DNA from: Streptomonospora litoralis
GTDB taxonomy: Bacteria; Actinomycetota; Actinomycetes; Streptosporangiales; Streptosporangiaceae
DNA length: 64,000 bases
Direction: 5' to 3'
Assembly (NCBI RefSeq): GCF_004323735.1
Contig: NZ_CP036455.1
Coordinates: 3,405,101 to 3,469,100, forward strand
Shown here: in pieces, positions 9,800-64,000 of the stretch
Position numbering within the stretch: position 1 is the first letter of the stretch
Layout: the number at the start of each line of letters is the position of its first letter
Notes under the pieces: model-generated
The model's input: only the letters and a program-made list of their open reading frames with translations
Told to the model about the DNA's origin: nothing
The model's database searches: none
Translations under genes and position numbers: made by a program

Positions 9800-9827
9800 G
9801 TGGCGCCCGCTGCCACGGGTAGCGGGG

Positions 9828-10210
9828 AAGAGTCGGCCGGTAAGCCGGATTTCGTCGGTCCGTAGCGGACCGGGCGGCCATCCATCTGGGGCTGCCGTTG
9901 CCGACAGCCTCGGTGCGGTCTACCCGCGAACTTCAGGCGGGCCGCCCTCGAACGTTCGCGCAGGGGACCGCGGTCCCCTTTTTTGACCTTGCTCCGGGTG
10001 GGGTTTACCGAGCCGACCGGATCGCTCCGGCCGCTGGTGGTCTCTTACACCACCGTTTCACCCTTACCACCGCGCGGCGGTGGCGGTCTGTTTTCTGTGG
10101 CACTTTCCCGCGGGTCGCCCCGGGTCGGTGTTACCGACCACCCTGCCCTGTGGAGTCCGGACTTTCCTCGACACCGCAACACGGTGCCGCGGCCGCCTGG
10201 CCGACTCTCC
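9828..10210 (-). ncRNA. rnpB: RNase P RNA (bacterial type A)
   Basis: Catalytic RNA that trims 5' leaders from tRNA precursors. Read on the minus strand, the 5' half has the conserved GAGGAAAGTCCGGACTCCA segment (about 10170) followed by GGTAAGGGTGAAACGGTGG and GGTGTAAGAGACCACCAGC. The 3' end has CCGACGAAATCCGGCTTACC, and the outer GAGTCGGCC/GGCCGACTC arms close the P1 helix. Total length is about 380 nt, normal for actinobacteria. An internal hairpin GGGGACCGCGGTCCCC after an A-run near 9980 is a lineage-specific arm. Ends are given to within a few bases. Confidence 0.95.
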
Positions 10211-24194: not shown

Positions 24195-24500
24195 AGTCGG
24201 GTGCTCGCCGGTGGCGGTGATCGGCGGAGGGCGGCAGGGGTCTGCTGTGCGGCCTTGTGAACTGCCGGGCGACGGGTGGACTTCACCGGAAAGCAGCAGC
24301 AAGGGCGGCGAATGGTGGAGGCGGCGGCCATCGCACCCGGTGCCCGCCGGTCGGGCGCCAGACGCGAGCGGCACGGGTCCGCTTGGCGGCCTTGCTGGCC
24401 TGCCGGGCGACGGGCGGTCTTCACTCAAAAGCGGCGGCGGTGGCAGCCGAGCCGGGCCCGCGCCCACCGCACCGCATGCCCGCCGGTGGCCCACCCGGCG
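24195..24500 (+). repeat. Two tandem copies of the dispersed GC-rich repeat (plus orientation)
   Basis: Two adjacent degenerate copies. Each has a GGGTC-TGCTGTGCGGCCTTG-like core (degenerate in the second), CTGCCGGGCGACGGGTGG, then CTTCACCGGAAAGC and a GGCGGCGG run, and ends with GTGCCCGCCGGT-type text. The same block occurs inverted at 25.2 kb and elsewhere in the window. Confidence 0.65.
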
Positions 24501-24704
24501 GGGGCGGCGGGGCCGAGCCCGCGGTAGTCGGCGGCGTCCATGCAGCCGGGTCGGGGCCACGAGACGCACGTACGTGCGGCGGCACCCGCCTCGGCGCCGC
24601 CCCGAGGCGCCACCCACGCACCGTGATTCCGCGATACGAAACAACGCGGGGCGTTTTGTCCAGCAATGCCCGATTTCCCAGCGGGCCCGCAGCCGCGCTG
24701 CGGC

Positions 24705-24784
24705 GGCGGTGGCGCACGAGGCGCACCGAATGGCGCGAAAACGCCCCTGACGTCGACTTTTCGTGCACCTCGTCGCCACCGCGC
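24705..24784. repeat. Imperfect inverted repeat, about 25-bp arms
   Basis: The left arm (24705-24730, GCGGTGGCGCACGAGGCGCA then CCGAA) is mirrored by the right arm (24758-24784, TTTTCGTGCACCTCGTCGCC then ACCGC) with few mismatches around a roughly 28-base centre. It could form a long hairpin in RNA from either strand. Confidence 0.5.
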
Positions 24785-25189
24785 CCGCCGAGGCCGCCCG
24801 CAAAACGGGCATAGGACCCCAAAAGCCCACCCCATCGGGTCGTGGAGCTCCCGGCGGCCGCCCCCGGGCGCCACGAGCGACGTGTCGTCGCCCCCGGGCC
24901 CCGATCCGGCGCGGCCACCGGGCCGTGCGGGCACCCGCGACCGCGCCCCGCCGCGCGGCTGCCTGCCCGCGCGGGCCCGGCCGGAACACGGCGGCGACGC
25001 CTCCCCGCCCCCGCGCCCGCTACGTCCGACGTTCCGGAGTCGGCCGCGGAGCCCGCGGCGATCGCGGCCGAATTCCCACAAAACGCCGCTGGATCTCGTC
25101 ATACGGGCACAATCGCCGCGCCGCCCTGCGACATAGCGGGCACGCGAGCGCCTCCCGGCTCCCCCGCGCCCTCGCCGACCCCGTCGCGT

Positions 25190-25370
25190 GGGTCACCGGC
25201 GGGTACCTGGCCCATTGGGCGCGGGCTGGGCCCTCCGCCACCGTCGCCGCCGCTTTTCCCGAAGACCACCCGCACCCCGGCAGACCAACAAGGCCGCACA
25301 GCAGACCCGAGCCGCCCGCCGCCGACCGCCGCCACCGGCAAGCACCCGACCCGGCGCCGGCTAGCGAGGC
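25190..25370 (-). repeat. Dispersed GC-rich repeat (minus orientation)
   Basis: Reverse-complement copy of the 24.2-kb repeat: GGGTGCTTGCCGGTGGCGGC, then GGCTCGGGTCTGCTGTGCGG, CCTTGTTGGTCTGCCGGGG, GGGTGGTCTTCGGGAAAAGC and a GGCGGCGACGGTGGCGG run, read on the minus strand. It ends about 60 bases before the pdxA2 stop. Confidence 0.65.
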
Positions 25371-30424: not shown

Positions 30425-30829
30425 GGTCGTCGGGCGGGGTGCCCGGCGGTGGCCCAGCCGGCTGAGGGGCGGCTCGGGTCTGCTGTTCGGCCTTGTCGGT
30501 GGAGCGCCCGGCCTCGGTGTCGCTGTGCTCGTCCAACGCCCGGAAATCACCAAATCCGAGTCGTTCTTTGGCGAAAACCTCGCGCTCGGCGGCCGGATGA
30601 ACCGGCGGACCGGACATATCGGCGCCGGCCACCCTCGCACGAGCCACCGCCCGCGGCCAGCACCCGGACTTCCCTTCGCCGACGGCCGCCACCGGCGGGC
30701 ACCCGGCCCGACAACCGCAGGCGCAACCCACCGCCGCCCTCGCCGCCGCTCTCCAGTAAAGACCACCCGCCACCCGGCAGACCACCAAGGCCGCCCAGCA
30801 AACCCGAGCCGCCCCCGCACCGCACCCTT
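30425..30829. repeat. Inverted pair of dispersed GC-rich repeats
   Basis: A plus-orientation copy (about 30430-30520, with GGCTCGGGTCTGCTGTTCGG then CCTTGTCGG) and a minus-orientation copy (about 30660-30829, with ACCACCAAGGCCGCCCAGCA and CACCGGCGGGCACCCGGCCC) flank a 140-base centre containing CATATCGGCGCCGG. The arrangement parallels the one at 63.4-64 kb. It fills the 520-base gap between the divergently placed operons' ends and abuts the dxs stop codon. Confidence 0.6.
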
Positions 30830-32821
30830 TCAGCCCGGGTGGTCCAGCAGGTTCCGGACGGCGGCTGCGATGCTTTCCGGGTCGAGGCCGACCGACGCGA
30901 GGATTCGGCTGCGGGATCCGTGCGGCAGGAACCGGTCCGGCAGGGCTCGGGTGGCGACGCGGGTGGTTGCGCCCGCCGCGGAGAGCTCCGCGGCCAGGCG
31001 CATGCCCAGCGAGCCCGTGGTCACCGTGTCCTCGACCGCGACGACGAGGTCGTATCCGGCGGCGAGGGAGACCAGCGCGGAGGAGACCGGGGCCGTCCAC
31101 CGCGGGTCGACCACGCTCGCGGCGATCCCCCGCCCGTCCAACTCGGCGGCCGCCTCCAGGCAGGCGGCGGCCAACGGGCCCGCCGACACCAGCAGGACCC
31201 GGGCACCCGCCGCCTCGCGCAGCAGGTCGCAGTCGCCGATGCGGCGCACGGCCGGGATGTCGGAACCCACCGCGGACTTGGGATAGCGCAGCGCCGTGGG
31301 GCCGTCCGCCGTCGCCACCGCCTCCCGGAGCAGTTCCCGCAGGCGGGCGCAGTCGCGGGGAGCGGCCAGGCGCAACCCGGGCACCACCGGGAGCAGCGAA
31401 CCGTCCCACATGCCGTGGTGGCTGGCCCCGTCGGGGCCGGTCACCCCGGCGCGGTCCAGGATGAACGTGACCGGCAGGCGGTGCAGCGCGACGTCGGCCA
31501 GCACCTGGTCGAAGGCGCGCCCCAGAAACGCCGCGTAGACGGCGACCACTGGGTGCATACCGCCGAAGGCGAGTCCGGCCGCCGATGTGACGGCGTGCTG
31601 CTCGGCGATACCGACGTCGTGGACACGGTCGGGGAATCGCTCCGCGAACGGGCCGAGCCCGGCGGGCAGCCGCATCGCGCCCGTCACGCAGACCACGTCC
31701 GAGCGCTCGGCGCCGATCGCGGTGATCTCCTCGGCGAAGACCGAGGTCCAGGTGGCACCACTCTTGGCCGGCCGCCCCGTCGCCGGGTCGATGACGCCGA
31801 CGGTGTGCATGTGGTCGCTCTCGTCGGCCTCGGCGGGCGCGTACCCTTTGCCCTTGCGGGTCACGCAGTGGACCACGACCGGCCGGTGCAGCGAGACCGC
31901 CGAGCGCAGCGCGTCCTCGACCTCGGCGATGTCGTGACCGTCGACCGGACCGATGTAGGCCAGCCCCAGGCCCTCGAAGACCGTGCCGGCGGACCGCTCC
32001 CCCACCGCGCCACGCAGCCCGGCCAGGTGGCGGGCGATACCGCCGACGGTGGGCGAGTAGGAGCGGCCGTTGTCGTTGAGCACGACGACGACGGGCCGCT
32101 GCGGCGCGGCGCCGATGTTGTTCAGCGCCTCCCAGGCCATGCCGCCCGTCAGCGCGCCGTCGCCGACGACCGCGGCCACGCGCCGCTCGGTGGTGCCGCT
32201 GAGCCGAACGGCCTTGGCGAGGCCGTCGGCGTAGGACAGCGCGGTGGAGGCGTGGGAGTTCTCGATCAGGTCGTGGCCGGACTCGGCGCGCGAGGGGTAG
32301 CCGGACAGTCCTCCTTCCTTGCGGAGCGTGTCGAAGTCCGCGCCGCGTCCGGTGAGGATCTTGTGCACGTAGGTCTGGTGGCCGGTGTCGAAAAGCAGGG
32401 TGTCGCGCGTGGTGTCGAAGACGCGGTGCGCGGCGATGGTGAGCTCCACGGCGCCCAGGTTCGGGCCGAGGTGCCCACCGGTGCGCGAGACCTTCTCGAT
32501 GAGGAAACGCCGGATCCGCGCCGCCAGGGGCGGGAGGTCCGCGGCCGCCATGGCGCGCAGGTCGGCCGGCGACCTGATGGTGTCCAGCGGGTCCGCCCCG
32601 CCCTCGGCGCCGTCGGCCCCGCCCGCGTCGGGGACGCCGGAGGCGTCGGCGGCGGGCTTCGCGCTGCGAAGACCACGGTCGCGACCGCCGCTCGGGCTGA
32701 AGCCGCCCTCACGGACGCCTCCGCTACCGCGGGCGGGTGCGCCGCCGCCGGGGTCGGACTGCGGCTCCGCTGCGGGCGCCGCCGCTGCGGTGTTTGCCGG
32801 ATCCGTGGAAGCCCTGGTCAC
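30830..32821 (-). CDS. dxs: 1-deoxy-D-xylulose-5-phosphate synthase with disordered N-terminal extension
   Basis: 663 residues. Core Dxs begins near residue 76 ([15 protein letters not shown]) with [14 protein letters not shown], thiamine-diphosphate motif [16 protein letters not shown], and the transketolase-like [18 protein letters not shown]. It condenses pyruvate and glyceraldehyde 3-phosphate, the first step of the MEP isoprenoid pathway. Ahead of the core is a Gly/Ala/Pro/Ser/Arg-rich tail of about 76 residues absent from housekeeping Dxs ([16 protein letters not shown] is one segment). The GTG at 32821 overlaps the ispH stop (GTGA), so the tail is a planned part of the gene: the nearest later start would lose the coupling. 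In Family 2B encapsulin systems disordered N-terminal tails serve as cargo-loading domains, so this enzyme may be encapsulated. Last gene of the five-gene operon. Confidence 0.93.
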
Positions 32822-34125
32822 GACGGCCTCACCACCGAAGGCAGGGTGAAGTGGATGGTCTCGCGGGTGATCTCGCGTTCGTGCACGGTCACCGGGCCCA
32901 GGCCGCCGAGCGCGGTGATCACGGCCTCGACCAGCCCCGGCGGCGCCGAAGCCCCGGCGGTGAGGCCGACGGTACGGGCCCCGGCCAGCCACTCCGGCCG
33001 GATGTCGCCGGTGTCGTCGATGAGCCGGGCCGGAGTGCCGCAGCGCTCGGCGAGTTCGACCAGCCGCACCGAATTGGAGGAGTTGTCCGAGCCGACCACC
33101 AGGACCAGGTCGGACTCCTCGGCAATGGATTTCAGGGCGTCCTGGCGGTTGGTTGTGGCATAGCAGATGTCGTCGGATGCGGGCCCGCGCAGGGCGGGGA
33201 ACCGCGCACGCAGGGCGTCGACGACCGCGGCGGTCTCGTCGGTGGCCAGCGTGGTCTGGGTGAGGTAGGAGACGCGTTCGGGGTCGGCGACCTCCAGCGC
33301 GGCGACGTCCTCGGGGGTCTCGACCAGGACGGTGCGTTCCGGCGCCTCGCCGAGGGTGCCCTCGACCTCCTCGTGTCCGGCGTGGCCGATCAGCACCACC
33401 GTGTCGCCGCGGGAGGCGTAGCGGCGGGCCTCGGTGTGCACCTTGGTCACCAGCGGGCAGGTGGCGTCGATGACCCGCAGACTCCGCTCGGCCGCCTCCT
33501 GGTGCACCCGGGGCGATACGCCGTGAGCGGAGAACACCACCGTGGCGCCTTCGGGCACCGCGTCCAGCTCGTCGACGAAAACCGCGCCCCGCGACTCCAG
33601 GTCGGCGACGACATGGGTGTTGTGCACGATCTGCTTGCGGACGTAGACGGGGCTGCCGCGCTGCGCCAGCGCCTGCTCGACGACCTCGATGGCGCGCTCG
33701 ACCCCGGCGCAGAACGACCTCGGCGCGGCGAGCAGGACGGTGCGCGCGGTGCCGGCGACCGCCAGCCAGGCGTCGACGGCCTCGCGCGCCGCGCGTTCGG
33801 CGGCTGCATCCGCCGGGTCCGCGGCGCAGGCGGCGCCCAGACCGACGGGCGGGTCGGTTCCCGGTATCAGAGCGGTGAACCCAGGAGCGTGCCGGTCGCC
33901 GCCTTCGGGGGCGGCCGATGGTGGGCCCTCGCCCGCGGCCAGCGGCAGGGTGCCGCGCACGGGCTGCGCACCGCGGCGGCGGAGGTCGCCGGCGACGAGG
34001 GCGGCCGCCGGGCATGCGATCTCGGGATCGTGCGCGCGGACGAGGCGGTCGGCGACCAGGACGGAGCCCGGCCGCAGCGGGTGCGCGGCGCCGGGGTCCG
34101 TGGGCGGTGCTGCGGTGTCGGACAT
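32818..34125 (-). CDS. ispH: IspH (HMBPP reductase) with an extra N-terminal domain
   Basis: 435 residues, against about 310-330 for usual IspH. The IspH core starts near residue 126 ([20 protein letters not shown]) and keeps the three Fe-S cysteines ([24 protein letters not shown]), the substrate-binding SNSVRL (after GSDN) and FSAHGVSP, so it should be active: HMBPP to IPP plus DMAPP, last step of the MEP pathway. The first 125 residues are not part of the reductase: a segment [20 protein letters not shown] and a second [20 protein letters not shown] look folded, joined by a Pro/Gly/Ala linker. I do not recognise the domain. ATG at 34125 follows GAGGAGG; gap to the prenyltransferase is 28 bases. 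Confidence 0.93.
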
Positions 34126-34153
34126 TGCTCTGCCTCCTCGGATCGGCCGTCGG

Positions 34154-35194
34154 TCAGTGGTCGCGTCGGGTGGCCAGGCGGGCGAGTGCGGCCAGTTCGG
34201 CCGCGGGGGACGCGGCGGCGGCCGCGGCGCGCAGGTGCTCCAGCGACCGCTCCAGCAGAGCCTCGGTCTCCCGCTCGCCCCAGTCGCGTCCGCCCGCCCG
34301 TTCCACCAGTTCGGCGGCGCGGACGAGGTCGGGGCCCTCCAGCGACCGTTCGCGGGCGAACAGGGCCGCCAGTTCGCCGGACTCGGCGGCGCCGGCGGCC
34401 AGCGCGGCCACGACCGGCAGCGTCTTCTTGCGGTTGCGCAGATCGGAGTGGACGGGTTTGCCGGTGACTGCGGGGTCGCCCCAGATGCCCAGCAGGTCGT
34501 CGGCGATCTGGAAGGCGAGGCCGAGCAGTTCGCCGAATCGGCGCATGTCCTCGGCCCCCTGCGGTGTAGTGCCGCCGAACGCGGCCCCCAGGCCGCAGGC
34601 TCCGCCCAGCAGCGCGCCGGTCTTGGCCTCGGCCATGGACCGGCACTCGGCCGGTCCGACGTCGGTGCGGCGCTCGAAGTCCATGTCTGCGCTCTGGCCG
34701 TCGATGAGGCGCTGGACCGCCTCGTTGAGCCGGTGCGCCGCCTCCGGCGGGGTGTGGCCGCTGCCGGCGGCCAGCGCGTCGAAGGCCAGGGAGAGCAGCG
34801 CGTCGCCGGTGAGGATGGCGCCGCCGACACCGAAGACGCTCCAGGCTGTGGCGCGGTGTCTGCGGGTGGTGTCGCCGTCCATGACGTCGTCGTGCAGCAG
34901 CGAGAAATTGTGCACCAGTTCGACGGCCACGGCGGCCGGCACCGCGTCTTCGGCACGGCCGCCGACGGTTTCGGCCGCCAGCAGGGCGAGCGCGGGCCGG
35001 AACATCTTCCCGCCCGCGCCGCCCACCGGGTTCCCGCGCTCGTCGCGCCAACCGAAGTGGTATTCGGCGATCGCCCTCGGCGAAGGGGGAAGCGTCTGAA
35101 CCGTCGCGCGCAAGACGGGGTCGACGATGTCGCGGACACCGGCGAGCACCTCGGCCGCCGAGCGGCCTCCCGTCGTCTCCTCGATTGCCACCAT
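34154..35194 (-). CDS. Polyprenyl diphosphate synthase, likely encapsulin-associated
   Basis: 346 residues of the all-helical trans-prenyltransferase family. The first Asp-rich motif is [10 protein letters not shown] and the second [12 protein letters not shown]; the [15 protein letters not shown] segment precedes them. Phe at the fifth position before the first motif (NFSLLHDD) suggests a short product such as FPP or GGPP. The opening (about 45 residues, [10 protein letters not shown]) resembles the polyprenyl transferases associated with Family 2B encapsulins. It lacks a long disordered N-terminal tail, and only 31 bases separate it from the shell gene, so no hidden extension exists. It would use the IPP/DMAPP made by the operon's IspH. 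ATG at 35194; AAGGGA lies about ten bases upstream. Confidence 0.93.
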
Positions 35195-35225
35195 GAGCCG
35201 GAATCCCTTCTGTGCGTTCCGTCGG

Positions 35226-36620
35226 TCAGCGGCCGATCTCGACGTTCTCCAGGACTCCGAGGGCGTCGGGGACCAGCACGGCGGCGGAGTAGTAGGTGCT
35301 GACCAGGTAGGACATGATCGCCTTATCGTCGATGCCCATGAACCGCACCGACAGCCCCGGCTGGTACTCGTCGGGCAGCCCGATGTGGTGCAGGCCGACC
35401 ACCCCCTGGTCGTCTTCGCCGGTGCGCATGGCGATGATGGAGCTGGTGCCGCGGGCGGTGACCGGGATCTTGTCGCAGGGCAGCATGGGGATGCCGCGCC
35501 AGCCGGTGACGCTGTGCCCCTCGTGGGCCAGGCTGTCGGGGTAGACGCCGCGGCGGCTGCACTCGCGGCCGAAGGCGGCGATCGCGCGCGGATGCGCCAG
35601 GATGAACCGTGTCCTGCGCCGCCGGGAGACGAGTTCGTCGAGGTCGTCGGGGGTGGGCGGGCCGGTACGGGTGGGGATGCGCTGCTTGAGGTCGGCGTTG
35701 TGCAGCAACCCGAAGTCGCTGTTGTTGACCAGCTCGTGCTCCTGGCGCTCCCGCAGCGCCTCGACCGTCAGCCGGACCTGCTCCTCCAGCTGGCTCATCG
35801 GCTGGTTGTACAGATCGGCCACCCGCGTATGCACCCGCAGCACCGTCTGCGCCACACTCAGCTCGTACTCCCGCGGTGAGAGCTCGTAGTCGACGAACGT
35901 GCCCGGCAGGTCCGGCTCGCCGGCATGGCCGGACGCGACGGCGATGTCGGCCTCGCCGTACCTGTTGACGGGGTACTCCGACCGGGCGCGGGCGCCTTCG
36001 AGATGGGCGCGCAGGGCGGGTGAGGCGTCGGCGGCCTGCTGGAACGCCGAGCGCGGCAGGGCCAGGACGGTGCAGGCCGTGCGGGCCTTGACGGTGTCCT
36101 CCCACGTGCCGGGATCGGCGTCCATCGCGGAGTCGCCGAAGTGGTCGCCGTCGACGAGCAGGCCGACCACGGTGTCGTCGCCGTACTCACCGGCCCGGTG
36201 CACGCCCGCCTTGCCGTGGGCCATGAGGTAGACGTGGTCGACGGGGGCGCCCGCGGCGGCGATGACGTCGCCGGGACCGTGTTCACGCTGCTCGAAGCGC
36301 TCGGCCAGGGCCGCGAGCGCGGCCTCGTCGGCGAAGCCGCGCAGCGCCGGGAGTTCGGCCAGTTCCGGCGGGACGACGCGCACGTCGCTCCCGGTGGTGA
36401 TGAAGCTGACCCGGCCGTCGCCGACGGTGTAGGTCAGCCGCCGGTTCACCCGGTAGGTGCCGCCGTCGACCTGCACCCACGGCAGGACACGGAGCAGCCA
36501 ACGGGAGGTGATCCCCTGCATCTGCGGCGGAGTCTTGGTCGTCGTCGCCAGATTTCGCGCCGCCGCGGTACCGAGGCTCAGCTGCTCGGATTGCGGATTC
36601 TCGACGCTGGATTCGGTCAT
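35226..36620 (-). CDS. Family 2B encapsulin shell protein, second copy (shell B)
   Basis: 464 residues. Family 2 encapsulins share the HK97 capsid fold; 2B members carry a cyclic-nucleotide-binding-like domain inserted in the chain and are often misnamed Crp/Fnr regulators. Here residues 1-80 ([20 protein letters not shown], then [11 protein letters not shown]) are the N-terminal arm and first strands; about 85-225 is the cNBD ([30 protein letters not shown]); 226-464 is the capsid core ([60 protein letters not shown]). No DNA-binding helix-turn-helix is present. The canonical phosphate-binding Arg of the cNBD is missing. The chain is closely related to shell A, with blocks of identical DNA. 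ATG at 36620 follows AGGTGGTG. Confidence 0.93.
35631..35878. repeat. 248-bp segment identical to 37296-37543
   Basis: By eye this segment of shell B is base-for-base the same as 37296-37543 in shell A, including silent positions, while the cNBD-coding regions differ widely. It encodes the central capsid helix region. A second shared block of about 140 bases with one mismatch lies at 35230-35378 (matching about 36889-37038). Confidence 0.85.
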
Positions 36621-36813
36621 CTGTCGCACCACCTGACTTGTGGTCGTATCGGAGGCGCCCCCGCTGGTCGCGGGAGCGCTGGGTCGCGCCGGCGCCCGGA
36701 TGCGCGGTACGCCCGCGGCGGGCGCGGCCGGGGCCGGCAAGGGGCTGCGGTCGGGCGGGCGCCCGCGGCGTGGAGGGTCCGATGCGCGGGCGGCCGCGGC
36801 GGAAGGGGGGAGG

Positions 36814-36856
36814 GCCCGTGCGGCCTGCGTCGGGGGCGCGGGGGCGCCGCACGGGC
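36814..36856 (-). terminator. Hairpin between the two shell genes (possible attenuator)
   Basis: 11-bp perfect stem (GCCCGTGCGGC at 36814-36824, complement at 36846-36856) in the 261-base gap between shell A and shell B. No T-run follows on the minus strand. It may reduce read-through and so set the A:B shell ratio, or protect an mRNA end after processing. The rest of the gap has no gene. Confidence 0.45.
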
Positions 36857-36881
36857 GGTTTGGGGCCGCGGAGGCGGCGGA

Positions 36882-38282
36882 TCAGCCTTCGCGGCCGATC
36901 TCGACGTTCTCCAGGATTCCGAGGGCGTCGGGGACCAGCACGGCGGCGGAGTAGTAGGTGCTGACCAGGTAGGACATGATCGCCTTATCGTCGATGCCCA
37001 TGAACCGCACCGACAGCCCCGGCTGGTACTCGTCGGGCAACCCGGTCTGGTGCAGGCCGACGACGCCCTGCTTCTCCTGGCCGGCGCGCATGACCATGAT
37101 CGCGGTGCTGCGGGTGGAGGTGACCGGGATCTTGTTGCAGGGGAAGATGGGCACTCCGCGCCAGGCGGGTACCCGGTGGCCCTCGACGTCGACGTTCTGC
37201 GGGTAGACGCCGCGGCGGCTGCATTCGCGGCCGAAGGCGGCGATCGCGCGCGGGTGGGCGATCAGAAAGCTCGGGTCCTTCCACACCGTGCCCAGGAGTT
37301 CGTCGAGGTCGTCGGGGGTGGGCGGGCCGGTACGGGTGGGGATGCGCTGCTTGAGGTCGGCGTTGTGCAGCAACCCGAAGTCGCTGTTGTTGACCAGCTC
37401 GTGCTCCTGGCGCTCCCGCAGCGCCTCGACCGTCAGCCGGACCTGCTCCTCCAGCTGGCTCATCGGCTGGTTGTACAGATCGGCCACCCGCGTATGCACC
37501 CGCAGCACCGTCTGCGCCACACTCAGCTCGTACTCCCGCGGTGCGGCCTCGTAGTCGACGAACGTGCCCGGCAGGTCCGGCTCGCCGGCATGGCCGGAGG
37601 CCACCGCGATCGCCGCCTCGCCACCGGGGTCCTCCTCGCGGGCGGGGCGCGCGTGGACCTCGGCCACGTGTGCCCGAAGCGCGTCGGAACGGTCGGCGAC
37701 CTGCTGGAACTCCGAGCGCGGCAGCCAGAGCACGGTGCAGGGGGTGACCGCCTTGGCGGTGGCGTCCCAGGAGCCCTCCTGCTGGACCAGGGCGGCCGAG
37801 CCGAAGTGGTCGCCGTCGATCATGGTGCCGAGCACGGTCTCGTCTCCGTACTCGCCGGAGCCCAGCCGGTTCACCTTCCCGTGGGCGATGAGGTAGACGC
37901 GGTCGGCGGGGGCGCCGCGTTCGACGATGACGTCGCCGGGCGCGTACTCCTCCTGGGTGAAGCGCTCGGCGAGCGCCTCCAGCGCGGCCTCGTCGCCGAA
38001 GTCGCGCAGGAGCGAGAGTTCGCAGAGCTCCCGCGGGATCACCCGGACGTCGGTGCCGGCGGTGATGAAGCTGACGCGGCCGTCGCCGACGGTGTAGGTC
38101 AGCCGCCGGTTCACCCGGTAGGAGCCGCCCGTGGCCTCGATCCAGGGGAGCAGCCGCAGCAGCCACCGTGAGGTGATCCCCTGCATCTGCGGCGGAGTCT
38201 TGGTCGTCGTCGCCAGATTTCGCGCGGCCGCGGTTCCCAGGCTCAGCGGTTGCTGCCCGTTCTCCACACCGGACTCGGTCAT
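36882..38282 (-). CDS. Family 2B encapsulin shell protein, first copy (shell A)
   Basis: 466 residues, same architecture as shell B: N-terminal arm with the same [20 protein letters not shown] motif, inserted cNBD at about 85-225 ([30 protein letters not shown]), and HK97 core ending [17 protein letters not shown]. The cNBD pocket differs from shell B and also lacks the canonical Glu and Arg that hold cyclic nucleotides. In the capsid core the main difference from B is at about residues 330-340 ([17 protein letters not shown] against [16 protein letters not shown]), likely an exposed or interface loop. First gene of the operon; ATG at 38282 follows GGTGGAAG. Two different shell proteins suggest a mixed icosahedral shell. 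Confidence 0.93.
37296..37543. repeat. 248-bp segment identical to 35631-35878
   Basis: Partner of the identical block in shell B. Its perfect match next to strongly diverged sequence is best explained by gene conversion or strong purifying selection after a recent duplication. Confidence 0.85.
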
Positions 38283-38895
38283 GGTGCTTCCACCCGTTCC
38301 TTTGCTGACCGTTGATGCTGTGCCGATTGTTCTCGACCGGCGTGGCCCGCCCGCGGGAACGATCCCCGAATCGGCCCCGCCTTGCTGCGCGGATGCGTGC
38401 AGATGCCGCGACCGCGCGTTATCCGTTGGAGCATGCGAATACGAATCCGTTTCCTCAGGTTGCCTGCGGACCGTTCATCGTCACCGGACCCCCGAATGCG
38501 CGCCGGGTTCCTCCGCCTGCCTCCCGCCTTGGCGGGGCCGGCACCTTCACCGGCCGTCCATCGCGGCGAGCCAGTCTCACGCCTGGTCGGCACCGCACGT
38601 ACCCGGCGAACTCCTCCGCATGCGACGCCATCGGCAACTTTCATCGCGCATGGGCATCCCGCACTCATAGGCCCCGAATTCGGCGGGTCCGGAACGGCCG
38701 GAGCGATTATCCAGGGAATCCGCCAACCTGCATAGGCGCCACCTCAGTCGGCGTTAGGGACAACTTGAATCTCCTCGCCGGAAACACAGGAAAGACGCCA
38801 CCAACGTGAGCCAGTCGCGCCATCCGGACATCCACCAACGGGGATATCAGCGCAACTGGAATTCCACCCCAACGCCTTTCCCTTATCATAAAATA
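38283..38895. other. Upstream region of the encapsulin operon
   Basis: About 600 bases with no supported gene; the right third is clearly A+T-richer than the window average. It must contain the operon promoter. I see GGAAACGGATTCGTATTCGC on the minus strand near 38450 as a possible promoter stretch (GGAAAC resembling some ECF sigma -35 boxes) but no convincing -10 box. A CCGGTT-A-AACCGG dyad at 38897-38909 lies just beyond. Confidence 0.4.
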
Positions 38896-38911
38896 GCCGG
38901 TTAAACCGGTC

Positions 38912-38947
38912 AAAAAAGAAGAGCAGCCCGGATGTTCCGAACTGCTC
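38912..38947 (-). terminator. Intrinsic terminator with T-run after the transketolase gene
   Basis: On the minus strand: GAGCAG stem (38942-38947), inner TCCG/CGGA stem, CTGCTC (38921-38926), then TTCTTTTTT (38912-38920). One of the few classical T-run terminators in the window. It lies about 100 bases after the tkt stop and separates tkt from the encapsulin operon. Confidence 0.88.
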
Positions 38948-39048: not shown

Positions 39049-40911
39049 TCAGGCCCCCGCTGCGGCGGGCGTCTCCTCCTGGCGCAGAATCCCGCGGACG
39101 GCCGCCTCGATGGCGCCCGCGTCGATCCCGGCCTCGCGGCGCTGCTCATCCGGCGCGGCCGAAGCCGGCATGTGCGAAACCGCCAGCTTCATCGTCCGCG
39201 GACGGGAACGCGTGTCGGCGAACACGTCCAGCACCGCGTCGCCGAGACCGCCCTCGGGCCAGTGGTCCTCGACCGTGACGATGCGCCCGGTCTCCTCCGC
39301 GGCCGCGCGCAGCGTCGGGGCGTCCACCGGCTTGACCGAGTAGGCGTCGATCACGCGTACGGCGACCCCCTCGCCGGCCAGCTTGTCGGCGGCGGCCAGC
39401 GCCTCGTGCACCGTAGCCCCGGCTCCCACGACCGTCACCTCGTCGGCGCCCGAGGAGCGCAGCACCTTGCTACCGCCGATCTCGAAGCCCTCGTCGGGAC
39501 CGTAGAGCACCGGCGTCTTGCCGCGCATCGTGCGCAGGTAGCTCACCCCGTCGTGCTCGGCCATCCCCGCGGTCAGCCGCGCGGAGGAGTTGGCGTCGCA
39601 GGGGTGCAGGACGACGCTGTTGTGTACCGCACGCAGGGCGGCCATGTCCTCCAGACCCATCTGCGAGGGACCGTCCTCGCCGATCGACACACCCGCGTGG
39701 GAGCCGACCAGGTTGATGTCGGCCCGGCTGACGGCCGCCATGCGGATGAAGTCGTAGGCACGCGTCAGGAACGCGGCGAACGTGGCCGCGTACGGGGTCC
39801 AGCCGCGGACCTGCAGCCCCACGGCGGCGGCGATCATCTGCTGCTCGGCGATGTAGAACTCGAAGAACCGCTCCGGATGCTCGGCGGCGAAGAACTTCGC
39901 CCGGGTGGAGTCGGCGACCTCGCCGTCCAGCACGACCACGTCGTCGCGCGCGGTGCCCGCGGCGGTGACCGCCTGGCCGAAGGCGTCGCGGGTGGCCGCC
40001 TCCTCGCCCACGTCGAAAGTGGGCAGGTCCACCGCCGCCCCGCCGGGCCGCTGACGCACCCCGCCGCTGGTGGGCGCGGCGACCTCGATGCGCATGTCGC
40101 GCGTGCCGCCCAGCTCGGAGATCGCCTCCTCGGCATCGGGCACCGGCTTGCCGTGGGCGCCCTCCTGGTCGGCGACCGCGCTGACCCCGGCGCCCTTGAC
40201 CGTGCGGGCGATGATCGCGGTGGGGCGGTCGGTGGTCTCCGCGGCCTCGCGGTAGGCGGCGTCGATCTGCTCGACGTCGTGGCCGTCGATCTCGACCGTG
40301 TGCCAGCCGAACGCCTCCACGCGGCGCCTGTAGGCGTCCAGGTCCCAGCCGTGGCGGGTGGGTCCGCGCTGACCTAGCCGGTTGATGTCCAGGATCGCGG
40401 TCAGGTTGGCCAGTCGGGCCTGTCCGGCGTACTCGAAGGACTCCCAGACCGAGCCTTCGGCCAGCTCGCTGTCGCCGCACAGCACCCAGACCCGGTAGGG
40501 CAGCCGGTCCAGGCTCGTGCCCGCCAGGGCGACGCCCGCTCCGATCGGCAGGCCCTGCCCCAGCGAACCGGTGGCCACGTCGACCCACGGCAGGCGGGGT
40601 GTGGGGTGGCCCTCCAGCGGACTGCCCAGCCGCCGGTAGCGCAGCAGCTCGGCATCGGAGATCACGCCGCAGGCCTTGTACAGCGAGTACAGCAGCGGTG
40701 AAGCGTGGCCCTTGGAGAAGATCAGGTGGTCGTTGCCCGCGTGCTCGGGGGCGTCGAAGTCGTAGCGCAGGTGCCCGGACGCGAGCACCGCCATCAGATC
40801 CGCCGCCGACATCGACGAGGTGGGGTGCCCCGATCCCGCGGCGTCGGCAGCGCGGACCGCGTCGACGCGCAGTTGCTGTCCCAGTTCCTTGAGCCGTTGC
40901 CGGTCGGTCAT
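39049..40911 (-). CDS. tkt: Transketolase, short (about 620-residue) type
   Basis: 620 residues, shorter than E. coli TktA and close to the animal-type length. N-terminal half: HPTSSMSAADLMAVL, HLIFSKGHASPLLYSLY, GSLGQGLPIGAGVALAG and the diphosphate motif GDSELAEGSVWESFEYA. C-terminal half: FYIAEQQMIAAAVGLQ with the catalytic Glu, then VGSHAGVSIGEDGPSQMGLE. Transfers two-carbon units between sugar phosphates, yielding glyceraldehyde 3-phosphate, which Dxs uses; the proximity to dxs is suggestive but the genes are separated by a terminator. ATG at 40911 follows AGGAAGGA. About 50 bases downstream of the GCS2-type gene, so the two may be co-transcribed. Confidence 0.93.
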   Translation of the reverse strand: MTDRQRLKELGQQLRVDAVRAADAAGSGHPTSSMSAADLMAVLASGHLRYDFDAPEHAGNDHLIFSKGHASPLLYSLYKACGVISDAELLRYRRLGSPLEGHPTPRLPWVDVATGSLGQGLPIGAGVALAGTSLDRLPYRVWVLCGDSELAEGSVWESFEYAGQARLANLTAILDINRLGQRGPTRHGWDLDAYRRRVEAFGWHTVEIDGHDVEQIDAAYREAAETTDRPTAIIARTVKGAGVSAVADQEGAHGKPVPDAEEAISELGGTRDMRIEVAAPTSGGVRQRPGGAAVDLPTFDVGEEAATRDAFGQAVTAAGTARDDVVVLDGEVADSTRAKFFAAEHPERFFEFYIAEQQMIAAAVGLQVRGWTPYAATFAAFLTRAYDFIRMAAVSRADINLVGSHAGVSIGEDGPSQMGLEDMAALRAVHNSVVLHPCDANSSARLTAGMAEHDGVSYLRTMRGKTPVLYGPDEGFEIGGSKVLRSSGADEVTVVGAGATVHEALAAADKLAGEGVAVRVIDAYSVKPVDAPTLRAAAEETGRIVTVEDHWPEGGLGDAVLDVFADTRSRPRTMKLAVSHMPASAAPDEQRREAGIDAGAIEAAVRGILRQEETPAAAGA

Positions 40912-46294: not shown

Positions 46295-46367
46295 TGGGCG
46301 CGAGAGGACTCGAACCTCCGACCACCCGCTTGTAAGGCGGGGGCTCTGCCAACTGAGCTACACGCCC
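46295..46367 (-). tRNA. tRNA-Val (anticodon UAC)
   Basis: 73 nt. Acceptor GGGCGTG pairs with CGCGCCC (one G-U pair), D-stem GCTC/GAGC, anticodon stem CCCGC/GCGGG with loop CTTACAA (anticodon TAC, reads GUA), T-arm GGAGG-TTCGAGT-CCTCT, discriminator A. The terminal CCA is not encoded. Confidence 0.96.
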
Positions 46368-63404: not shown

Positions 63405-63510
63405 CGGGCGAGGGGTGGTCTGCGGGGGGCGGCGGCGAGGGCGGCAGTGGGCCGGGCCCGCGGTCATCGGGTCGGGTGCTCGCCGGTGGCGCAGCCGACG
63501 GGGCGGCGGG
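63405..63510 (+). repeat. Dispersed GC-rich repeat, plus-orientation fragment
   Basis: GGTGGTCTGCGGGGGGCGGC, then GGCGGCAGTGGGCCGGGCCC and GGGTCGGGTGCTCGCCGGTG match the end of the repeat unit seen at 24.2 and 25.2 kb. Part of the 650-base gene-free tail of the window (63352-64000). Confidence 0.55.
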
Positions 63511-63573
63511 CACCGGCACTGTTCGCGGGCGGCGACCCGGCGCCGGTACGTCCGATATGCCGGTTCGTCCGGC

Positions 63574-63634
63574 GTCTGTCGTGAAGTTATGGCTGCGGGA
63601 AAGCGCATTCCGCGGCCATAACTTCACGACAGAC
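63574..63634. repeat. 20-bp perfect inverted repeat
   Basis: GTCTGTCGTGAAGTTATGGC (63574-63593) and its exact complement (63615-63634) flank 21 bases that themselves pair partly (GCGG with CCGC). A very stable hairpin with lower GC than its surroundings, lying in the centre of an inverted pair of GC-rich repeats. No T-run follows on either strand. Confidence 0.85.
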
Positions 63635-63739
63635 GGGAGAAGCAGCGCCGAGTCTGTCTGTGGGGCTAGATTCGGCGCCGTCGGATCCACCCGGTGTTGC
63701 ACCCACCGATTGAATCCACCGCCGGAATCCGGTGAAAAC

Positions 63740-64000
63740 CGCGCGTTCGATGCGCCGACCGGCCCGCGGCGGCCGAACGCCGCCCCCGCCGCGCGCTCAA
63801 CCGGCGGGCACCGGACCCGGTGACCGCAGGCCCCGCCCTTCGCCGTCCTCGCCGCCGCTGTTCCCCGTCAGACCGCCCGCCGCCCGGCAGACCAGCAAGA
63901 CCGCACAGCAGACCCGATCCGCTCCGCCGGCCGCCGCCACCGGCGAGCACCCGAACCGGTGACCGCAGGGCCAGCCCACCGCCGCCCTCGCCGCCGCCTT
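63740..64000 (-). repeat. Dispersed GC-rich repeat, minus-orientation copies reaching the window edge
   Basis: Contains GCCCGGCAGACCAGCAAGAC, then CGCACAGCAGACCCGATCCG and CACCGGCGAGCACCCGAACC, in the same order as at 25.2 and 30.8 kb. The GTGACCGCAGG-CCCGCC segment occurs twice about 140 bases apart, indicating a tandem unit that continues past the edge. Confidence 0.65.

Follow-up and report, generated by a model that had tools for sequence, protein, structure and literature searches.

The 64,000-nucleotide window analysed here (Streptomonospora litoralis, contig NZ_CP036455.1, positions 3,405,101 to 3,469,100) carries a five-gene operon for an encapsulin shell and isoprenoid enzymes, and in this study we provide evidence that this shell may be served by a terpene cyclase encoded far away in the same genome. 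The five genes are all encoded on the minus strand, in the order Enc1 (36882..38282, 466 residues), Enc2 (35226..36620, 464 residues), polyprenyl diphosphate synthase or polyprenyl transferase (PT; 34154..35194, 346 residues, with DDVMD and DDLLG motifs), IspH (32818..34125, 435 residues) and Dxs (30830..32821, 663 residues, GTG start). The 261-base gap between the two shell genes was absent from the first-pass annotation, which was made from the letters of this DNA, while the tight order that it described, with gaps of 31 and 28 bases and a final 4-base overlap, was reproduced in full. The genome holds four polyprenyl synthase genes, two IspH and two full Dxs, thus the IspH and Dxs of the operon are second copies.

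The first-pass annotation had claimed two Family 2B shell proteins combining an HK97 fold with an inserted domain and had suggested a profile search of both. In that hidden Markov model search Enc1 and Enc2 scored 787.1 and 773.5 bits with NF041163, the NCBIfam model of the family 2B shell protein, far above its cut-off of 400; the SrpI-type HK97-fold shell domain PF19307 was matched at 460 and 463 bits, respectively, and the inserted cyclic-nucleotide-binding-like domain PF00027 was placed at residues 111-198 of Enc1 (37689..37952, minus strand; 70 bits) and 112-198 of Enc2 (36027..36287, minus strand), which together uphold the claim. Enc1 aligns over nearly its full length with the cryo-electron microscopy chains 9bje (711 bits) and 9bix of the two-component shell of Streptomyces lydicus, and the alignment with 9bje includes the published TVWK motif. 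In the available text of Dutcher et al. 2025 (PMC12407261), TVWK distinguishes Enc1 and RRRK is the motif of Enc2; here Enc1 reads GTVWKDP, and at the same place Enc2 reads SRRRRTR, one residue off RRRK. We took two shell genes within 10 kb plus the Enc1/Enc2 diagnostic motifs as the mark of a two-component system, scoring one of the two published motifs, and both features were found at this locus. Judged by its sequences, the operon belongs to a known kind of two-component Family 2B system, and its two shell genes, whose products are 75% identical, are the only ones found in the genome. Within the shell domain the two genes share an identical run of 248 bases (about 37295-37543, minus strand), other 100-base blocks being 59-97% alike, which suggests recent gene conversion. 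The Rfam family Sernc350, a Saccharopolyspora antisense RNA probably described originally from a gene of this shell family, matches the opposite strand of both genes at 37753-38260 and 36088-36596 (plus strand; 190 and 175 bits).

The absence of a terpene cyclase from the operon, as first annotated, was confirmed; the end product, then left unnamed, is now narrowed by a lone, doubly tagged, geosmin-synthase-like cyclase elsewhere. This only PF19086 gene of the genome (G000:C1:429301-431571) lies ~3 Mb in contig coordinates from the operon (~C1:3435930-3443382) and encodes two cyclase domains, with the S. coelicolor germacradienol/geosmin synthase 5dw7 as its closest PDB entry. Its motifs DDHFLE, NDLFSYQRE, DDAYP and NDLYSYQKE are presumably the metal-binding motifs of two type I cyclase domains, and the first two are common to the N-terminal cyclase domain in 5dw7. 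The protein reads GPTGLGTSAGR between the domains (residue 349) and GPTGLGTSAAR at the C-terminus (residue 733), while GPTGLGTSA would be expected 2e-8 times in a random protein of the same make-up. The linker of 5dw7 aligns with the tag only in part (tg-gtsa), and its 366-residue chain stops short of the C-terminus. In the available text of PMC8346489, a GPTGLGTSAAR-type consensus is given for the same two places of geosmin-synthase-like cyclases in Family 2 operons and proposed as a targeting sequence; both tags of the remote cyclase conform to GPTGLGTSA(A/G)R, as published for cyclases that lie within Family 2B operons. In Murinocardiopsis flavida (L051) the orthologue of this cyclase follows immediately downstream of Enc1-Enc2-PT. 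No squalene-hopene cyclase was found in the S. litoralis genome. By our own gene calling the neighbours of the cyclase include small proteins, which we take to be WXG100-like.

The cyclase and the shell occur together. Among 150 genomes of the same bacterial family, searched at E up to 1e-60 for the shell and up to 1e-80 for the cyclase, 107 had the shell and 96 the cyclase; both were present in 95, the cyclase only in 1, the shell only in 12 and neither in 42, that is, the cyclase was found in 95/107 shell-bearing versus 1/43 shell-free genomes. With one genome per genus the corresponding counts were 35, 0, 8 and 25. A strict DNA pattern for the tag was matched 44 times, in 39 genomes, and a reversed control pattern 4 times; all 39 genomes are shell-bearing, two of them (G046 and G051) without a match to this cyclase.

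Among the remote cyclases of this family with sequence in hand, the tags are mostly kept. A cyclase was classed as near if a listed shell gene lay no more than 15 kb away, and otherwise as far; of the 96 cyclase genomes 92 were classed (G005, G013, G038 and G092, with matches in pieces, were left out), giving 36 near, 31 far and 25 not placed as either. Thirty cyclase loci were examined, among them G006, which was not parsed, and G031, with a degenerate tag only. The far cyclases with sequence in hand (21 of the 31) keep the C-terminal tag in 21/21 and the linker tag in 20/21 cases, and the columns flanking the tags mostly show a consensus of 0.2-0.6 versus 0.80 over the whole protein; the alignment windows were centred on GLGT, hence the counts of tag presence carry weight over the flank comparison. 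On a quick cyclase tree the near and far placements need 4 changes, 3 of which are forced by well supported branches. Outside the family, 40 of 54 cyclase genomes were sampled (23 of the 30 in genus g83 and 17 of the 24 others), with tags counted by GLGT alone, so that a looser copy, GLGTSTTE for example, is included among the tags kept, and with two rows beside a shell, L225 and L254, not parsed. Outside both g83 and the family, 13 of 15 shell-adjoining cyclases keep the C-terminal GLGT tag, the other two being one degenerate and one unparsed, and two cyclases without a shell in the stretch fetched keep it as well. The picture in g83, which is probably Streptomyces to judge from the likeness of its linkers to the S. 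coelicolor protein, is different: 22 of 23 cyclases have no neighbouring shell, and 14 of these 22 have no GLGT tag, most of their linkers reading GPGTSAAD-like, as does the S. coelicolor protein in part. The linker tag of L257, also from g83, looks spurious.

The cargo tag also resembles the shell itself. Both shell proteins bear the motif LGTAAAR in their N-terminal arm (N-arm; 38220..38240 in Enc1 and 36555..36575 in Enc2, minus strand), while the tag reads LGTSAAR; LGTAAAR was found in 48 of 128 shell proteins, 14 were unmatched by the pattern and the remainder mostly carry LxTxAAR variants. The arms of the S. lydicus shell read LSTAAAR and LDTAAAR, and in the available text of Dutcher et al. 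(PMC12407261) the Enc1 N-arm is resolved at some positions only. From the likeness alone we infer that the cyclase tag may mimic the shell N-arm.

PT exceeds the cut-off of NF041169, the model of the family 2 encapsulin cargo polyprenyl transferase, by a small amount (455.6 versus 450 bits). The PT N-terminus is reported as 50-100 disordered residues in the available text of PMC8346489; here 59 residues precede the Pfam domain, yet the NF041169 match begins at residue 13. An informal look, with no formal count, showed a stretch like RSAREVLAWSR near the N-terminus of many shell-linked PTs (L040-L119); it is missing from PTs of hopanoid clusters and is also present in some PTs, such as L069 and L092, for which no shell neighbour was detected. 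This stretch is a candidate loading signal of PT.

The enzymes do keep company with the shell in relatives, as seen in the survey of gene order that the first-pass annotation had proposed. We took the best 80 of a larger number of PT loci, looking for a shell upstream within 9 kb and for IspH within 2.5 kb downstream, some loci being cut by contig ends. At least one shell gene was found in 73 of them, at least two in 60, IspH in 41, Dxs in 22, IspG in 12 and a terpene cyclase in 25; all five genes were present in 22, 16 of these with a cyclase nearby. Restricting the set to the 64 loci that extend 6 kb or more to either side gave 61, 53, 37, 20, 11 and 21, respectively, with all five genes in 20 and a cyclase in 15 of these 20. 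The full five-gene order is conserved in several families, and the gene order of the operon is beyond chance. Terpene cyclase/PT two-component operons comprise Enc1, Enc2 and PT with IspH, Dxs and IspG in relatives, as here except for IspG, which some other genera carry after IspH or Dxs; in Lentzea and some other genera cyclases sit between Enc1 and Enc2, whereas here the cyclase is elsewhere in the genome. A published survey counted 900 PT operons and states in its available text that PT systems often encode terpenoid precursor genes (Andreas and Giessen 2021, PMC8346489), therefore the operon is of a conserved, already described kind.

The supply genes, on the other hand, come and go. In six Streptomonospora genomes Enc1, Enc2 and PT were present in 6/6, a near full-length IspH in 5/6 and the operon Dxs in 3/6; the sixth has only a C-terminal IspH remnant after PT (L122, G030 region) and has kept both shells and the tagged cyclase, and one congener without the operon Dxs has a further IspG-Dxs-IspH set elsewhere (L145). 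Of the 126 PT matches listed across the 150 family genomes, 82 share 55% identity or more with the PT of the window, 64 of them with a listed shell within 9 kb, 30 with a listed IspH and 22 with both; the 44 less identical ones include 21 with a listed IspH but none within 9 kb of a listed shell. Shell-free supply sets adjoin squalene-hopene cyclases and other cyclases. We therefore regard the methylerythritol phosphate (MEP) pathway genes as a putative dedicated supply module rather than demonstrated cargo.

IspH and Dxs each exceed the curated cut-offs of their models and carry extra N-terminal sequence. IspH matches PF02401, NF002189 (448.6 bits, cut-off 444) and E. coli IspH structures, its core spans residues 129-433, and its cysteines 139, 223 and 321 are invariant columns among 18 sequences. 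Its extra N-terminal domain (residues 1-125; 33751..34125, minus strand) matched no Pfam family at E up to 1 and is predicted to fold with high confidence except for two low stretches, 1-13 and 65-79; in an alignment check of the structure model, the listed rows fit the IspH core and barely cover this domain. Hopanoid clusters of the same bacterial family resemble the operon in that PT has a second IspH nearby, which bears an extra domain at its N-terminus. They differ in that a squalene-hopene cyclase replaces the shell (confirmed by Pfam in L140 only, in the others identified by DxDD motif and length) and in that the IspH domain is longer and nucleosidase-like (fused IspH at L140 9280-10809, L142 10441-11949 and L144 10519-12075), matching PF01048 in 3/3 tested and HpnG in the one tested, L140, below that model's cut-off. 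The two versions align in hhalign at 98% and E 2.3e-13 over 45 columns, and the operon domain is best read as a putative remnant of the hopanoid-cluster nucleosidase-like domain. A quick IspH tree sets the seven hopanoid IspH apart by a single branch (unstarred, support 87), and the domain seems to have been lost or gained more than once. As a cargo tag the domain is ruled out: its longer form stands in squalene-hopene cyclase clusters without a shell in the stretch fetched. A reading as a fourth IspH-like repeat, based on one weak self-alignment (score 42), was dropped. Dxs (TIGR00204 548.9 bits, cut-off 466) has a 78-residue low-complexity N-extension, and GGHLG lies 115 residues from its called start. 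In relatives GGHLG was located in 24 of 25 rows, two of them from repeat genomes, at 33-62 residues from the called start; the long extension is not shared with relatives and was likewise ruled out as a cargo tag.

Taken together, we consider a geosmin compartment the best explanation, with a probability of roughly 0.6. The operon would make a mixed two-component Family 2B shell of Enc1 and Enc2; IspH and Dxs, working in the cytosol, would make more C5 diphosphates available to PT, which, as a short-chain prenyl diphosphate synthase, would condense them, perhaps on the shell or within it. The cyclase of the shell would most likely be the lone geosmin-synthase-like enzyme encoded ~3 Mb away, docking on the shell by its two GPTGLGTSA(A/G)R tags, fed by PT and the MEP enzymes and yielding geosmin or its sesquiterpene precursors. 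The identities of the genes, the tags, the co-occurrence and the retention of tags in remote cyclases were observed; that the cyclase is loaded in trans, where PT sits and what is made are inferred. Several points weigh against this explanation. The cyclase scores 1122.5 bits with NF041168, the model of the encapsulin terpene cyclase cargo, below the cut-off of 1200, and it is not encoded in a shell operon, being ~3 Mb off. The shell search would also pick up Family 2A, 12 shell-bearing family genomes are without this cyclase, and shared ancestry in the co-occurrence is controlled only partly. One genome (G148) has the cyclase and no listed shell, though a shell fragment lies beside PT at a contig end (L044). 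The 25 unplaced cyclases stand outside the near/far comparison, and one near row of the tree, L193, lies 14 kb from a shell gene; without it one change fewer is needed. In g83, one GLGT tag or more is retained by 8 of the 22 cyclases with no shell beside them, only the neighbourhood having been viewed, and L258, among the 14 counted as untagged, has GPTGIGTSAAR. The tags may be relics of an older neighbouring arrangement. Lastly, no known cargo tag was found in PT.

The relic argument leads to an alternative in which the shell holds PT alone as a prenyl diphosphate compartment and the remote cyclase is unencapsulated. PT lies directly downstream of Enc2 and exceeds the encapsulin-cargo cut-off of NF041169, and many shell-linked PTs share the RSAREVLAWSR-like stretch, absent as that stretch is from hopanoid ones though not from some lacking a detected shell; the 12 of 107 shell-bearing genomes without this cyclase and the tags retained in g83 point the same way. 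Relic tags should decay, however, yet the remote cyclases of the family have kept nearly all of theirs while 14 of the 22 in g83 have lost them, and we consider this alternative unlikely. Rather less probable is a shell for another product, with the operon serving a different, untagged terpenoid or carotenoid pathway of the genome: four polyprenyl synthase genes and an operon without a cyclase would leave room for it, but the co-occurrence of cyclase and shell and the tags argue against it.

The first-pass annotation suggested that the shell may hold a prenyl-diphosphate factory or a store of hydrophobic product; we read the factory as one in which IspH, Dxs and PT are all packed. Its nanocompartment with isoprenoid supply survives as a two-component shell, a conserved operon and a dedicated supply, while the placing of IspH and Dxs inside the shell is not supported. 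A tight operon across several families, complete in 22 of the best 80 loci, and N-terminal extensions on both enzymes would favour it, but no GLGT-type tag was seen in IspH or Dxs and the extensions are not shell-specific: the IspH domain is longer in hopanoid clusters, many shell-linked IspH are without it, and relatives' Dxs are without the long extension. In addition, congeners have lost the operon Dxs or most of IspH while the shell stayed, and IspH inside a shell would also need a reductant; we thus regard such a factory as improbable. That both shell proteins are instead Crp/Fnr-type regulators of an isoprenoid operon, a case which the first-pass annotation had itself named as contrary to its claim, has in its favour the cyclic-nucleotide-binding-like domain and the PDB records that call two related shell proteins Crp/Fnr regulators. 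It is hardly credible in view of the CRP-type model, which gave 31.5 bits for Enc1 and 22.9 for Enc2 (cut-off 266) against 787 bits for Enc1 with the shell model, the full-length match to cryo-electron microscopy shell proteins and the Pfam matches (E up to 0.001), none of which is a DNA-binding domain.

The proposed geosmin compartment with a distant cyclase departs from known systems in where the cargo is encoded. The Family 2B PT operons of Andreas and Giessen (PMC8346489) share the shell type, the two-shell arrangement, the adjacent polyprenyl transferase and the precursor genes, but in the available text of that survey cargo was assigned among genes no more than 20 reading frames away from the shell, whereas the tagged cyclase here is ~3 Mb off. 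The S. lydicus shell has the same Enc1/Enc2 pair, although its operon is of the xylulose kinase type (PMC12407261, as far as its text is available), unlike the PT operon here. Encapsulins are described as consistently present in myxobacterial geosmin clusters (available text of PMC12224551), which links encapsulin and geosmin synthesis as proposed here, but as gene neighbours, with cyclase and shell far apart in our case. The link between geosmin clusters and encapsulins is thus already in print for myxobacteria, as far as these sources go, and the distant tagged cyclase is apparently new; in the open-licence literature searched we found no report of loading of tagged cyclases in trans. Cargo encoded in trans is known for Family 1 encapsulins of Myxococcus. 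Encapsulation of 2-methylisoborneol synthase has reportedly been studied as well, in work not found in the literature searched. If distant loading is true, operons counted as PT only in a survey by gene neighbourhood may be cyclase compartments, the tag would be usable for genome-wide cargo finding, and the system would offer a direct test of why volatile-terpene enzymes sit in shells, with N-arm mimicry as a candidate binding mode. A wider view, in which this actinobacterial group has a scattered geosmin compartment with repeated unlinking of the cyclase from the shell-PT operon, a continued match between the two owing to tags that copy the N-arm LGT(A/S)AAR and dock there, and an exchangeable MEP module akin to that of hopanoid clusters, is offered only tentatively.

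Around the operon, a promoter-like TTGACC-17-TATGAT lies ~600 bases upstream of Enc1 (38885..38913, minus strand; 1 found versus 0.2 expected), and a terminator-like hairpin (38921..38947, minus strand; 5 terminator-like sites in the region versus 2.5 expected) directly 3' of the transketolase gene (39049-40911, minus strand), between it and the operon. Both sites lie in the 766-base stretch upstream of Enc1, parts of which are conserved among congeners, and with this gap and these sites intervening transketolase is unlikely to be a member of the operon; a close homologue (85-90%) adjoining shells was seen in Streptomonospora loci only. For a 129-residue reading frame that ends at the Enc1 start, one close relative showed 41% similarity (L040 and L120, one and the same stretch), and the other matches were weaker. 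At the other end, a weak terminator-like site lies 3' of Dxs (30765..30782, minus strand), a weak consensus match only. Short dispersed repeats occur at 24197-25251, 30688-30747 and 63417-63995 of the window, and also in the gap after IspH of L040, which is without Dxs. The window further holds an RNase P RNA (9825-10208, minus strand) and a tRNA (46295-46367, minus strand).

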